In this document: piece by piece, positions 24,756 through 63,507 of the stretch
Layout: each line of letters starts with the position of its first letter
How positions within the stretch are numbered: the first letter of the stretch is position 1
Source of the DNA: a virus
Virus record (IMG/VR): IMGVR_UViG_3300042311_001128
Location: 23,617-87,616 of that record
DNA length: 64,000 nt
Reading direction: 5' to 3' (one strand)
Notes under the pieces: model-generated
The model's input: only the letters and a program-made list of their open reading frames with translations
Told to the model about the DNA's origin: nothing
Databases searched by the model: none
Translations under genes and position numbers: made by a program

Positions 24756-25286
24756 ATGATTGAGATTGAAATGATAGAGATTCCGAATGTAACCTTTAAA
24801 ATTGGAAAATATCCAATAACTCAAGAACAATATCAAGAGGTAATGGAAACTAATCCTTCTTATTTTATGAACAACCCCCAACATCCAGTAGAGCAGGTTA
24901 GTTATAATAATGCCGTAGCTTTTTGCCAAAAATTAAGTGAAATAACAGGGAAAAACTATCGCCTACCTACAAATTCAGAATGGGAATATGCTTGTCGAGC
25001 AGGTACAACTACTACATATTATTTTGGTAATGATGTCAATCAGTTAGGAGATTATGCTTGGTATAGCGAAAATTCTGGATTTATAACTCATCCTGTGGGG
25101 CAGAAAAAGCCCAATGGTTGGGGATTGTACGATATGCACGGCAACGTCTGGGAATGGTGTCAAAACGTTCCCCGTGGGGGCGGATTCGACACCTGTGATC
25201 ATGGATGTCGTGCGGCACGACTTAGTTACCGCTATTTTGAAGAATATTGCCCCAGCAATATTGGTTTTCGGGTAGTTTGTGATTAA
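24756..25286 (+). CDS. Formylglycine-generating-enzyme-like C-type-lectin protein, possible DGR target (176 aa)
   Basis: A TTTAGGAG site precedes ATG 24756. The protein follows the FGE-sulfatase fold: KYPITQEQYQEVM, PVEQVSYNNAVAFCQKLSEITGKNYRLPTNSEWEYACRAGT, GLYDMHGNVWEWC. The end has the frame RGG ... CRAAR ... NIGFRVV with unusual residues at the positions that diversity-generating retroelements change (FDTCDHG, LSYRYFEEYCPS). It lacks the N-terminal half of full FGE enzymes. No reverse transcriptase or template repeat was found, so DGR control is inferred. Confidence 0.7.
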   Translation: MIEIEMIEIPNVTFKIGKYPITQEQYQEVMETNPSYFMNNPQHPVEQVSYNNAVAFCQKLSEITGKNYRLPTNSEWEYACRAGTTTTYYFGNDVNQLGDYAWYSENSGFITHPVGQKKPNGWGLYDMHGNVWEWCQNVPRGGGFDTCDHGCRAARLSYRYFEEYCPSNIGFRVVCD

Positions 25287-32910: not shown

Positions 32911-32964
32911 ACAAAAGTATCCACAGTGACACTTGATAAACTGTCACACTTCGCCAACTACCTG
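32911..32964 (+). promoter_or_regulatory. Dyad-containing regulatory repeat, copy 1
   Basis: A 54-bp block with the dyad GTGACA-(10 bp)-TGTCAC (32926-32947) recurs in inverted orientation at 63455-63507 with only a few differences. Here it precedes the structured repeat element at 32990; there it precedes the gene at 63140. Confidence 0.7.
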
Positions 32965-32989
32965 AAAATTATCATGATATATTTAGAAT

Positions 32990-33267
32990 ATAAGCACTAA
33001 ACCAAGTGCATCCATTAATTAGAGCCTCCATAAGCTACTGGGCGGATCAGTAACCGACTTGAAATAGTAGTCGGCTGGTGAGACTGGTTAATGAAGTGCA
33101 TCCATTAATTAGAGCCTCCATAAGCTACTGGGCAGATCAGTAACCGACTTGAAATAGTAGTCGGCTGGTGAGACTGGTTAATGAATCATCCTAAGCTTGC
33201 TGGTGTAAGCCCAGTAACCGATTTGAAATAGTAGTCGGCTGACGCACGCACTTGGTTTAGTGCTTAT
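32990..33267 (+). ncRNA. Unassigned structured RNA/DNA element: 90-nt tandem repeats inside a 20-bp terminal stem
   Basis: ATAAGCACTAAACCAAGTGC (32990-33009) and its exact reverse complement (33248-33267) close the element. Inside, two 90-nt units (33005-33094 and 33095-33184) differ at one position; a third, shorter unit keeps only the most structured part. Each unit has the hairpin CCGACT/AGTCGG and can pair CATTAA with TTAATG. No reading frame fits. Strand follows the upstream regulatory repeat and is inferred. I do not recognise a known RNA family. Confidence 0.6.
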
Positions 33268-33285: not shown

Positions 33286-33320
33286 AGTTATTCCAGTGAT
33301 TTACTGCCACTGGAATAACT
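33286..33320 (+). promoter_or_regulatory. Perfect 13-bp hairpin/dyad before the HTH gene
   Basis: AGTTATTCCAGTG and CACTGGAATAACT flank a 9-nt loop, 13 bp before the start at 33334. No T run follows, so operator or leader hairpin is more likely than terminator. Confidence 0.5.
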
Positions 33321-33333
33321 GCTTTGGGCAAAA

Positions 33334-33579
33334 GTGATAACACCTAGACAAGCCTACATCTATCTAGTGTGGGCAAAAAACAACAATCTTGACCCAGTGC
33401 CTGTTACTTCCCGGCATCGGAACTATCGCTTTAGAGTGGCATCAACTACAGCAGAATTAGGAATAGGTAAAGAACGAGTTAGGCAAGTTTTGGCTAAAGT
33501 CCTTGAACTGCTATCAAAAGGAAACCAAATTGAGGAGGCAACCGACCTAATACTACAAGAGTACAAAAAATTTAATTAA
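33334..33579 (+). CDS. HTH protein (81 aa)
   Basis: The C-terminal half (TTAELGIGKERVRQVLAKVLELL) reads as a sigma-region-4-like helix-turn-helix. It lies between the structured repeat element and a strong terminator, as a one-gene unit. Likely a small transcription regulator. Confidence 0.5.
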   Translation: MITPRQAYIYLVWAKNNNLDPVPVTSRHRNYRFRVASTTAELGIGKERVRQVLAKVLELLSKGNQIEEATDLILQEYKKFN

Positions 33580-33854: not shown

Positions 33855-34559
33855 ATGGCTGATCTAATTTTACAACGTTTTGATCACGACGGCATTGAGC
33901 TAATTATCGACACTCAGACCGGTGAAAGCTTTGCCTCAATCAAAGGATATGCTCGTATGTCCGGGAAAAGCCACAACGCTATCACTATGCGATTAAACCG
34001 GCTATCTAAAGAAGATAGCAAGGGGGTAACTTCTGAATCTCCAAATCACCCTCAAATTCAAACAGGGAGCGGGTTACAAGGGGGTAACACAATGGGGTTA
34101 GGATTAGGATTGCTAAAACAGGCTCAAATTCAAACAGAGGGCGGGTTGCAAGGGGTTTATCTAATCCCAGAAGACCTAATCTGTAAGTGGTTGCCAAAGG
34201 ATAATCCTGAGTTAGCCTCTCAAGTGCTTAAGCTAGGAGTCCGATTATTCCTTCACACATTAGCTGGTTTTCGCGTCAAGAGCGAGGCAATTAAAGAGGT
34301 AAGGCAACTTGAGAGCCAAATCGTCAAACTAAGCGAAGAGAAGCAAATACTAGAGGAGTTGATCAAAACTCAAAAGACTATGATCGCTGACTTTAGCAGT
34401 AAAAACTCGATGCTTGACTATAAGCGGCTAGTGATCGAAGAATTACACGCTGAAAAAGAGCGCGACATAGCTAAATTTAACCTACTTGAAACCGAACGAG
34501 AAAAAGCACGGGGATGGCGAGGCGGTCGAATGCTTATGAGAAACGATAAAAAACGGTAA
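33855..34559 (+). CDS. Phage antirepressor-like regulator, paralogue 2 (234 aa)
   Basis: The N-terminus (LQRFDHDGIELIIDTQTGESFASIKGYARMSGK) is near-identical to the 19800 protein. The middle carries an inserted internal duplication (QIQTGSGLQGG / QIQTEGGLQGV). Residues 95-140 (LIPEDLICKWLPKDNPELASQVLKLGVRLFLHTLAGF) are shared with paralogue 1. A coiled coil and a basic C-terminus (RGWRGGRMLMRNDKKR) follow. Likely a DNA-binding phage regulator of the BRO/KilA-N type; family name inferred. Confidence 0.5.
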   Translation: MADLILQRFDHDGIELIIDTQTGESFASIKGYARMSGKSHNAITMRLNRLSKEDSKGVTSESPNHPQIQTGSGLQGGNTMGLGLGLLKQAQIQTEGGLQGVYLIPEDLICKWLPKDNPELASQVLKLGVRLFLHTLAGFRVKSEAIKEVRQLESQIVKLSEEKQILEELIKTQKTMIADFSSKNSMLDYKRLVIEELHAEKERDIAKFNLLETEREKARGWRGGRMLMRNDKKR

Positions 34560-55328: not shown

Positions 55329-55355
55329 TAAATAAGAATGAAAGAAGGTCGATCC

Positions 55356-57041
55356 ATGAAAGCCATGCTAGTCAAAAAAACTATTGCGGACACAAAGCTT
55401 AACCTTAATGCCACTCAGCGAGCCTATATTGATCGCTGGATGGACGAGCTTAAAGCTGTCTGGAATTTTGGACTAGAGCTACTGATGGAATATCAGCTTA
55501 ATAAGTATTACGACGAGCTTGAGCAAATAACAGGAAAACCAGTTAAACGGGTTAAACGTCGTTTAGCTAAAAAACCTCAATTTATTGACTCCCTGAAAAA
55601 CGAAAAAGGTAAATCCCTTCCTAATCCCCTTTACACCCCCAAATATTTAACTGGCAAGCAAAAAGTTAAAATACAGATAGCTAGAGAAAAAAGACAAAAA
55701 ACAGGTCACTCTTATCCTGTTCATGTCCCTATTCAACGGCGGTTAAAATCTGATAATTATTTTGGGTTATGTGGCTGTATTACAAAAGAAAAATGTCCAG
55801 AACTATGCAAGGACATCCCTATGGCTTTTGTCCAAGGGGTTTTAAAAAAGCTTGCTGATTCTTGGAAAGCTTACACCAAACTCGATAAAAAGAATTTAGA
55901 CAGAAAACTTCCTAGATTTAAAAGAAAAGAAGATAAAATTAAATCTCTTTATTCTGAGATCAGCAATTGCGCTGTTAGAAAAGGGGATAAAATATCTATA
56001 GGTAGCTGTGGCAAAACATTAGGCGATTTAAAGATTGTCAACAATACCTTAGACATTCGGTGGGGTGACAGAAAAGCCTCTACTGTATCAATTATCAAAT
56101 ACCCATCGGGATATTATCTAAGTCTATTTGGTGAATTTGAAGTAGATGATCTACCTGATTCCGATAAAGCAATCGGTATTGACGTAAAACTAGAATATAT
56201 AATTAGTACCAGCGACGGGCAACAAATTGACCCGCCCAAATACTATAGAAAACGGCAAAAAAGACTAGCAAGACTGCAAAGAAAAACCGCTAGACAGTAT
56301 AAAGCAGGGGAAAATAAAGACGGCAAAAATCTCGCTAAAACTCGTGCTAAAGTTGCCAAAACTCACGAAAAAATAGCAAGACAACGCAAAGGATTTAATC
56401 ATGCCTTAAGTACCGATATTGCTAGAAATCATGGCGCTGTAGCCGTAGAAGACCTCAACTTAAAGAATTTAATGCGACGACCTAAACCGAAAAAAAGAGA
56501 AGACGGTAAAGGCTACGAACGCAATAACGCGAAAGCCAAAGGGGGATTAAATAAATCCTTTGCTGATGCTAGTTTAGGACAATTAACCGGTTTTCTTGAA
56601 ACGAAAATGAAAACTCCCAACCGAGAGTTTATCAAAGTTCAACCAGCTTACACCAGCCAGGATTGTCCTCGCTGTGGCAATCGTGTTAAAAAAAGTTTAT
56701 CAACCCGCACCCATAAATGTTTAGAGTGTGGATGTACTTTACCTAGAGATGTGGCCGCCGCAATCAACATCTTAGGGAAAGCAGACTTCGTAAGAAGCTA
56801 CCCGGCTTGTACCGGGGAAGTTAAGCCTCTGAAGGATTTCGATAAGGAATCAGCGCAGGAGGAATTACTTGACAAGTCCAGCCGATTGTTACTTGGGGAA
56901 GAAACCCTCGAAACCTTACTGGTTTTGACCTCCGAGCCAGTGACACCCAAGAAAAAAACAAGGAAAAGGTCGATCCACTCGCAACCCGCGCAAACAGTCA
57001 ACGCAGGCTATACGCAGCTTACACTCTGGGAGACTGGGTAA
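55356..57041 (+). CDS. Miniature type V-U-like Cas12 effector, TnpB-related (561 aa)
   Basis: ATG 55356 (MKAMLVKKT) has AAGAAGGT upstream and follows the promoter closely; an in-frame ATG at 55338 is possible. N-terminal half is helical and basic; CGCITKEKCPELC (about 139-151) may bind zinc. RuvC-I AIGIDVKLEYI (Asp276), RuvC-II VAVEDLNLKNL (Glu365), zinc ribbon CPRC...CLEC (Cys437, 440, 455, 458) and RuvC-III PRDVAAAINI (Asp465) are intact, so it should be an active nuclease. An 86-residue tail beyond RuvC-III spans the anti-repeat at 56866. The stop codon lies inside the first CRISPR repeat. No transposon ends or TnpA were seen; adjacent array argues for Cas12 rather than plain TnpB. Confidence 0.85.
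   Translation: MKAMLVKKTIADTKLNLNATQRAYIDRWMDELKAVWNFGLELLMEYQLNKYYDELEQITGKPVKRVKRRLAKKPQFIDSLKNEKGKSLPNPLYTPKYLTGKQKVKIQIAREKRQKTGHSYPVHVPIQRRLKSDNYFGLCGCITKEKCPELCKDIPMAFVQGVLKKLADSWKAYTKLDKKNLDRKLPRFKRKEDKIKSLYSEISNCAVRKGDKISIGSCGKTLGDLKIVNNTLDIRWGDRKASTVSIIKYPSGYYLSLFGEFEVDDLPDSDKAIGIDVKLEYIISTSDGQQIDPPKYYRKRQKRLARLQRKTARQYKAGENKDGKNLAKTRAKVAKTHEKIARQRKGFNHALSTDIARNHGAVAVEDLNLKNLMRRPKPKKREDGKGYERNNAKAKGGLNKSFADASLGQLTGFLETKMKTPNREFIKVQPAYTSQDCPRCGNRVKKSLSTRTHKCLECGCTLPRDVAAAINILGKADFVRSYPACTGEVKPLKDFDKESAQEELLDKSSRLLLGEETLETLLVLTSEPVTPKKKTRKRSIHSQPAQTVNAGYTQLTLWETG
56866..56892 (+). ncRNA. Anti-repeat (candidate tracrRNA/scaffold) inside the cas12 coding end
   Basis: 27 bases match the reverse complement of the first 27 bases of the CRISPR repeat at 25 positions; as RNA this gives 25 Watson-Crick pairs, one G-U and one mismatch. 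Flanking hairpins CCCGG/CCGGG (56801-56816) and ACTGG/CCAGT (56918-56941) suggest a structured RNA of roughly 56.78-57.04 kb overlapping the effector frame. RNA ends are unknown. Confidence 0.75.
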
Positions 57042-57583
57042 CAATCGGCTTGACTTGTTAAGTAGATTGCAAGTTGCCAATTCAGATAGCATGATAGGCC
57101 TCATCCACACAGGTAACAATCGGCTTGACTTGTTAAGTAGATTGCAAGCTTTTAACGTTGGGGTCGTGACATTTTGAGGGTCATGTAACAATCGGCTTGA
57201 CTTGTTAAGTAGATTGCAAGTATCCAAAACTCAGGAAACCTTAGAGCCTTTAATGGTAACAATCGGCTTGACTTGTTAAGTAGATTGCAAGGGCCACATT
57301 TACTATATGGAGTATCTATAGCAATTGTAACAATCGGCTTGACTTGTTAAGTAGATTGCAAGCCAGAGAATATCGGTTTTATCCAAGTGATCGACTTAGG
57401 TAACAATCGGCTTGACTTGTTAAGTAGATTGCAAGAGTGAGTTTACCGACGCGATTAGCGAATGTTTTTAGCCGGTAACAATCGGCTTGACTTGTTAAGT
57501 AGATTGCAAGAGTTGTACCATTGTATATCATCCTATGGTAGGTTTTTGTAACAATCGGCTTGACTTGTTAAGTAAATTGCAAG
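57038..57583 (+). CRISPR. CRISPR array, 8 repeats and 7 spacers
   Basis: The 36-bp repeat starts GTAACAATCGGCTTGACTTG and ends TTAAGTAGATTGCAAG. Repeats start at 57038, 57113, 57185, 57256, 57327, 57400, 57475 and 57548; spacers are 35-39 bp and all different. Seven repeats are identical; the last has one change (AAATTGCAAG), which marks the distal end, so the array reads away from cas12. The first repeat begins in the last codon and stop of cas12, leaving no leader. The repeat can pair CAATC with GATTG. No cas1, cas2 or cas4 lies nearby. Confidence 0.95.
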
Positions 57584-57646
57584 GAAACAAATACAAGACA
57601 AGGCAAGGCAAACTAAGGCAAGGAAACAAAACAAAACTCCAAAACC

Positions 57647-63454: not shown

Positions 63455-63507
63455 CAGGTGTTGGCGAAGTGTGACAGTTCATCAAGTGTCACTATGGGTA
63501 CTTTTGT
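63455..63507 (-). promoter_or_regulatory. Dyad-containing regulatory repeat, copy 2
   Basis: Minus-strand copy of the block at 32911-32964 with the dyad GTGACA-(10 bp)-TGTCAC and about four differences. It lies upstream of the gene at 63140. Confidence 0.7.

Follow-up and report, generated by a model that had tools for sequence, protein, structure and literature searches.

A structured RNA with tandem modules behind a shared promoter cassette in phages of Microcystis, and its possible action as a protein decoy

In a stretch of phage DNA of 64,000 nucleotides (the window) positions 32990-33267 specify an element which, judged from the alignment of its homologues, is a structured RNA under selection, with one lineage providing the compensatory changes. 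Its architecture and its sequence family are new in that no description was met in the databases searched; structured small RNAs of phages are otherwise of a known kind.

Architecture of the element and conservation of its fold

The element is present once in the 87.6-kb record. It is closed by a terminal stem, P1, the arms of which (5' arm 32990-33009, 3' arm 33248-33267; all features are on the plus strand unless stated otherwise) are 20 nt each, 100% complementary and 238 nt apart. Two copies of a 90-nt unit A follow in tandem (33004-33093 and 33094-33183), identical at 89 of 90 positions with G33044 versus A33134 as the single difference. A third, divergent unit B (33184-33247) consists of UAAGC, the hairpins hp1 and hp2, and CUGACGCAC; it has 29 of 30 nt in common with unit A, at 33212-33241. 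In the first copy of A the 5' strand of stem P2 (CATTAATTAG, 33013-33022) has its partner at 33084-33093, the equivalents in the second copy being 33103-33112 and 33174-33183. Hairpin hp2, which reads CCGACT-UGAAAUAGU-AGUCGG in the first copy, is located at 33054-33074, 33144-33164 and, in unit B, 33218-33238. For the three CCGAYT/AGTCGG hairpins the predicted pair probabilities were about 0.7-0.98, while support for hp1 was weak in single-sequence folding. The whole element folded with -101.3 kcal/mol (z -5.8), and none of 200 dinucleotide shuffles was as stable; the folding energy alone did not distinguish the plus from the minus strand. The longest of the reading frames overlapping the element has at most 36 codons and none spans it. 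For the window, this bore out a preliminary description of exact 20-bp arms, two 90-nt units with a single difference, a partial third unit and a CCGACT/AGTCGG-type stem in all three.

Homologues were collected by searching IMG/VR for exact occurrences of the hairpin CCGAYTTGAAATAGTAGTCGG. It matched 24 contigs; 24 of 24 carry the element, and all belong to one phage family. In its usual form the element consists of two units, A and B, 74 nt apart; it is about 200 nt long in most phages compared to about 280 nt in the window. Three units are restricted to the window, L010, L012 and L015 (the last contig stops before unit B is complete) and derive from tandem duplication of unit A; the second A copy is missing in most relatives. 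The bases which distinguish the two A copies of the window are alleles that segregate among relatives. The three-unit architecture reported previously is correct for the window, but it is not the general form. The number of modules is two or three, and one and the same hairpin has been retained in units A and B. The interior of the element is nearly invariant among relatives, both in the inner AACCGAGTGC/GCACTTGGT stem and in the hairpin modules that it repeats. Conservation is highest in the loops (UGAAAUAGU and GUGUAA), which are kept even on a changed stem. In P1 the inner half is kept and the outer half is variable: about 10 outer bp vary without compensation in L018, L022 and L023. A perfect 20-bp terminal stem, which had been put forward as the defining feature, is thus broken in its outer half in these phages.

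Does the conservation reflect an RNA fold? Among 12 distinct two-unit elements 98.4% of the cells of the consensus structure pair, and in four pairs both partners have changed, where 0.6 would be expected from shuffles; many pairs never vary. For hp2 alone three double-changed pairs were counted, a number reached in 0 of 500 shuffles. Three of the four double changes are in the unit B hairpin of the divergent relative L023, where CCGATT/AGTCGG is replaced by CTATCT/AGATAG around an unchanged UGAAAUAGU loop. Because of these three compensatory changes, in a single lineage as L023 and L107 are the same contig, we consider the folded RNA to be under selection. At variable pairs G-U on the plus strand outnumbered A-C by 14 to 6; therefore an RNA from the plus strand is favored. 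The earlier claim of selection on structure is thus sustained by the compensation in L023 and by the pairing in the homologue alignment. Its original argument, a compensating G-U in the third unit, is not: the change is one-sided, and relatives have either allele in unit A as well as in unit B.

Beyond this phage family the element was not encountered. Distant blastn against annotated phages and plasmids gave no match. Among 85,000 species genomes of bacteria and archaea 52 matches were obtained, all single and without the hairpin, and for this reason they were regarded as chance. A relaxed hairpin pattern gave additional matches in viral contigs, which were deemed chance from their flanks. 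A covariance model of the whole element found nothing in distant phages (43-63% TerL identity), in 12 Microcystis-type genomes, or among the few candidates scored per genome in 391 genomes from one cyanobacterial order. With a model of the module the same cyanobacterial and Microcystis-type genomes yielded weak matches only, which were rejected by eye. At the Rfam gathering score the 64 kb contained only three tRNAs, and relaxed thresholds gave the element no convincing match either. The proposal that it corresponds to no known RNA family is in line with this search, in which an alignment to RF02681, discussed below, stayed under the cutoff.

Promoter cassette and variable gene neighborhood

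Upstream of the element is a palindromic repeat, GTGACACTTGATAAACTGTCAC plus ACTTCGCCAAC (32926-32960), which recurs at further expression cassettes within the phage family. A second copy of it is located at 63458-63492 on the minus strand before a protein start, and in relatives the repeat also precedes several different genes. At the element, the palindrome GTGACACTTGATAAACTGTCAC is accompanied by ACTTYGCCAAC. A probable -10 box, TATATT (32978-32983), aligns with the TATATT of the family's coding cassettes; a clear -35 box was not seen upstream of the element. From this arrangement transcription would be expected to start near 32990. The promoter stretch GAAAATTATCATGATATATTT was found in 26 viral contigs, always immediately upstream of the element (2 of the 26 contigs end inside it). 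This substantiates the previously noted regulatory repeat and adds an element-linked variant of the promoter. The same cassette, TATATT followed by GTAAGC, heads several small protein genes with ribosome-binding sites of their own in relatives which lack the element.

On the downstream side the RNA is followed in the window by a 13-bp hairpin (33286-33320), possibly a weak terminator. The two contigs that diverge most, L018 and L107, carry hairpins of 16 bp at this place; with GUUUU after them, these resemble strong terminators. Between phages, the loop of this downstream hairpin occurs in inverted orientations (GATTTACTGTCA versus GACAGTAAATCA; L022, L026, L006; L008, L013, L016), and in some phages the hairpin merges into a further copy of the palindrome of the promoter.

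Next in the window is a gene for an 81-aa putative HTH protein (33334-33579). The protein had no match in Pfam, PHROG or PADLOC, and its structure model was of low confidence, too weak for use. The HTH gene lies 85-93 nt downstream of the element in the window and in some ten relatives; elsewhere the distance is 334, 402, 1395 or 1650-1731 nt, and in some element-bearing contigs the gene was not seen within the available sequence. The hairpin and HTH gene noted initially are thus present in the window, but the RNA has no fixed association with the HTH gene. Upstream of the element, too, the gene varies: a methyltransferase gene, another small gene or that of the terminase small subunit was found there. 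The fixed promoter, the variable gene distance and the terminators in the two most divergent contigs argue for an independent non-coding RNA gene and against a leader, a riboswitch or a MITE. Very probably, as far as genome comparison can tell, this gene specifies an RNA acting in trans.

Two interrupted genes were seen. The 234-aa gene after the element (33855-34559 in the window) is split by about 1.3 kb in L025 (11564-13560). The gene of the terminase large subunit, uninterrupted in the window, is split in many relatives (L005, L011, L013, L014, L015, L025 and L105), with about 1.2 kb inserted behind residue ~55; this interruption is a candidate intein or intron.

Host and CRISPR neighborhood

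Microcystis-type genomes have CRISPR arrays with the repeat GTTCCAATTAATCTTAAACCCTATTAGGGATTGAAAC, in which 34 of 341 spacers match the phage family and 23 of 341 match the window. From PMC4428289 the repeat is DR1 of subtype I-D from M. aeruginosa, and the array position in genome G275 agrees with the NIES-843 position printed there. Because type I-D arrays of Microcystis aeruginosa carry many spacers against the phage family (also L258 and L259), this species is established as the host. A fragment at 24801-25168 of the window, by eye like a formylglycine-generating enzyme, has 82% DNA identity to Microcystis-type genomes, which suggests a recent exchange with the host.

The exchangeable region which harbors the element contains another conserved non-coding module, in 22 contigs, several of which also have the element. 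This module holds TCCTATTAGGAATTGAAAC, i.e. the hairpin and handle of DR1 in which T-A replaces C-G as the closing pair, and its likeness to DR1 exceeded that of all 1000 shuffles. Examples, with GTAGCTGCACAAAGAACTCCTATTAGGAATTGAAAC, are L105 (7540-7640, minus strand) and L022 (4600-4740, minus strand), and others include L089, L112, L010, L016 and L026. In some phages the module lies behind the shared promoter, in L089 it starts 170 nt past the element, and in the window it is not present. It resembles the solitary repeat units or Racrs of PMC10651486, and from its sequence we regard it as a strong candidate for an RNA anti-CRISPR.

The phage has CRISPR components of its own. At 55338-57610 the window encodes a Cas12u2/Cas12f-like protein (PADLOC E 7e-123) together with an array of eight repeats (GTAACAATCGGCTTGACTTGTTAAGTAGATTGCAAG); a strong anti-repeat within the 3' end of the Cas12-like gene (~56860-56900) is a possible tracrRNA. 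Spacers of this array had no match among the phage contigs compared. The distribution of the Cas12-like gene does not follow that of the element. Because the element and the phage repeat both start with GTAAC and share CGRCTTGA, a kinship was suspected; the similarity was no better than in shuffles, and the idea was dropped.

Mimicry of a CRISPR repeat by the element was likewise discarded. It was compared with six Microcystis repeats, the repeat of L283 and that of the phage itself. Of the 16 strand comparisons 15 had p > 0.07. The remaining one, an antisense match to DR5 (p = 0.003), was at ~0.05 after correction and thus not significant.

Possible functions of the RNA

As the best explanation, held tentatively, we propose that the element is a trans-acting, multivalent protein-decoy RNA; we infer its transcription, its decoy action and its target. 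The RNA would be made from the phage-wide promoter cassette, probably early in infection. Its closing stem would hold two or three tandem Y-shaped modules, each of which ends in two side-by-side hairpins with conserved loops. All modules would bind one and the same kind of partner, in all likelihood a defense or RNA-binding protein of the host, and would thereby titrate it; such a decoy might help the phage to gain control of the cell. This fits the location in an exchangeable counter-defense region beside the RNA anti-CRISPR candidate, and from that neighborhood alone the element may have a role in counter-defense. Neither a target nor a binding motif nor a host homologue was found.

How does such an RNA relate to known systems? 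Titrating RNAs of the CsrB/RsmZ type carry repeated protein-binding hairpins. Like these, the element has several copies of one hairpin module in variable number, but it has no repeated GGA loop motif and no Rfam match. ToxI-type RNAs of type III toxin-antitoxin systems have tandem repeats of ~35-50 nt with a promoter ahead and a hairpin after. The element, too, has tandem units (two or three) behind a promoter and a hairpin thereafter, yet its units are 60-90 nt long, and no ToxN-like toxin gene was found directly downstream, where the neighbor varies and is the 81-aa protein in the window. A reverse transcriptase as in retrons (msr/msd) was absent from the ten flanking and regional proteins scanned. 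With GOLLD, ROOL and OLE (PMC12286853) the element has in common that these are structured RNAs of undescribed function, some of them phage-encoded; it differs in being just ~200-280 nt long, with no common motif found and no Rfam match. Racrs (PMC10651486) and the element are both small non-coding RNAs of phages directly behind a promoter of their own (predicted here) without adjacent cas genes, and the element shares its region with the module that carries a host-like CRISPR repeat. In contrast to Racrs it has no CRISPR-repeat-like sequence and is tandem, branched and 200-280 nt long.

Among other explanations, a base-pairing small RNA is possible although we consider it unlikely. The invariant loops, UGAAAUAGU and GUGUAA, would pair with host or phage mRNAs and alter their translation or stability. 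That the loops surpass even the stems in conservation, and that the RNA has an independent cassette with a terminator in relatives, would suit such a function. Yet predicted duplexes with 81 phage translation-start regions were no better than those of a shuffled element.

A structural or replication RNA, i.e. a packaging RNA, an origin transcript or a primer near the terminase genes, is improbable. The element does adjoin the gene of the terminase small subunit in L018 and L023, and a terminase gene is near in all phages, but L092, L105, L111 and L112 lack the element in a similar terminase and replication context. Because these close relatives keep that context, the element is not essential to packaging or replication. 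Moreover, its cassette is of the same kind as that of accessory genes.

Slightly less probable still is a cis-acting leader, in which tandem aptamers would control the HTH gene. Tandem aptamers occur among the riboswitches treated in PMC9481103, and the short HTH distance in the window and its ten or so relatives would be compatible. However, the next gene differs, at the longer distances other promoters and terminators intervene, and L105, L111, L112 and L092 possess the same HTH gene without the element. As judged from the variable downstream gene, this reading is largely refuted.

Very little speaks for a self-cleaving ribozyme akin to Twister-sister in unit B. Unit B and the 3' arm align full-length to RF02681 with 15.3 bits, sharing a short loop motif (GGUGUAAGCC against GGUGCAAGCC), but the gathering score is 34 and E is ~1. 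The positions after GUGUAA vary freely (AAGC, AATT, AAAC, AAGT), the strand that would be cleaved, GUGCUUAU, coincides with the variable outer arm of P1, so that neither catalytic strand nor loop is conserved among the homologues, and unit A has no such loop. A mobile DNA element (MITE) can practically be dismissed: the perfect 20-bp terminal inverted repeats of the window would be expected, but there is a single copy in the record, relatives have it at one locus behind the same promoter, and the outer arm halves are not conserved. A known MITE or ribozyme family had been named at the outset as what might overturn the description; both were checked and neither was recognized.

Returning to the multivalent decoy, the RNA could, with rather low confidence, represent a new class of RNA counter-defense. 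Three-way-junction modules would capture a host protein of immunity or RNA processing without mimicry of CRISPR repeats, alongside the RNA anti-CRISPRs. With the element, a well-supported family of structured phage RNAs that lacks any described relative is present in viruses of a bloom-forming cyanobacterium of global importance, and the spacers of the host indicate that these phages are under CRISPR attack. Given the RNA anti-CRISPR candidate in the same region, the question what such phage RNAs bind becomes directly testable. Should the element prove to be a new RNA inhibitor, RNA-based counter-defense would reach beyond CRISPR-repeat mimicry, and the class would be new.
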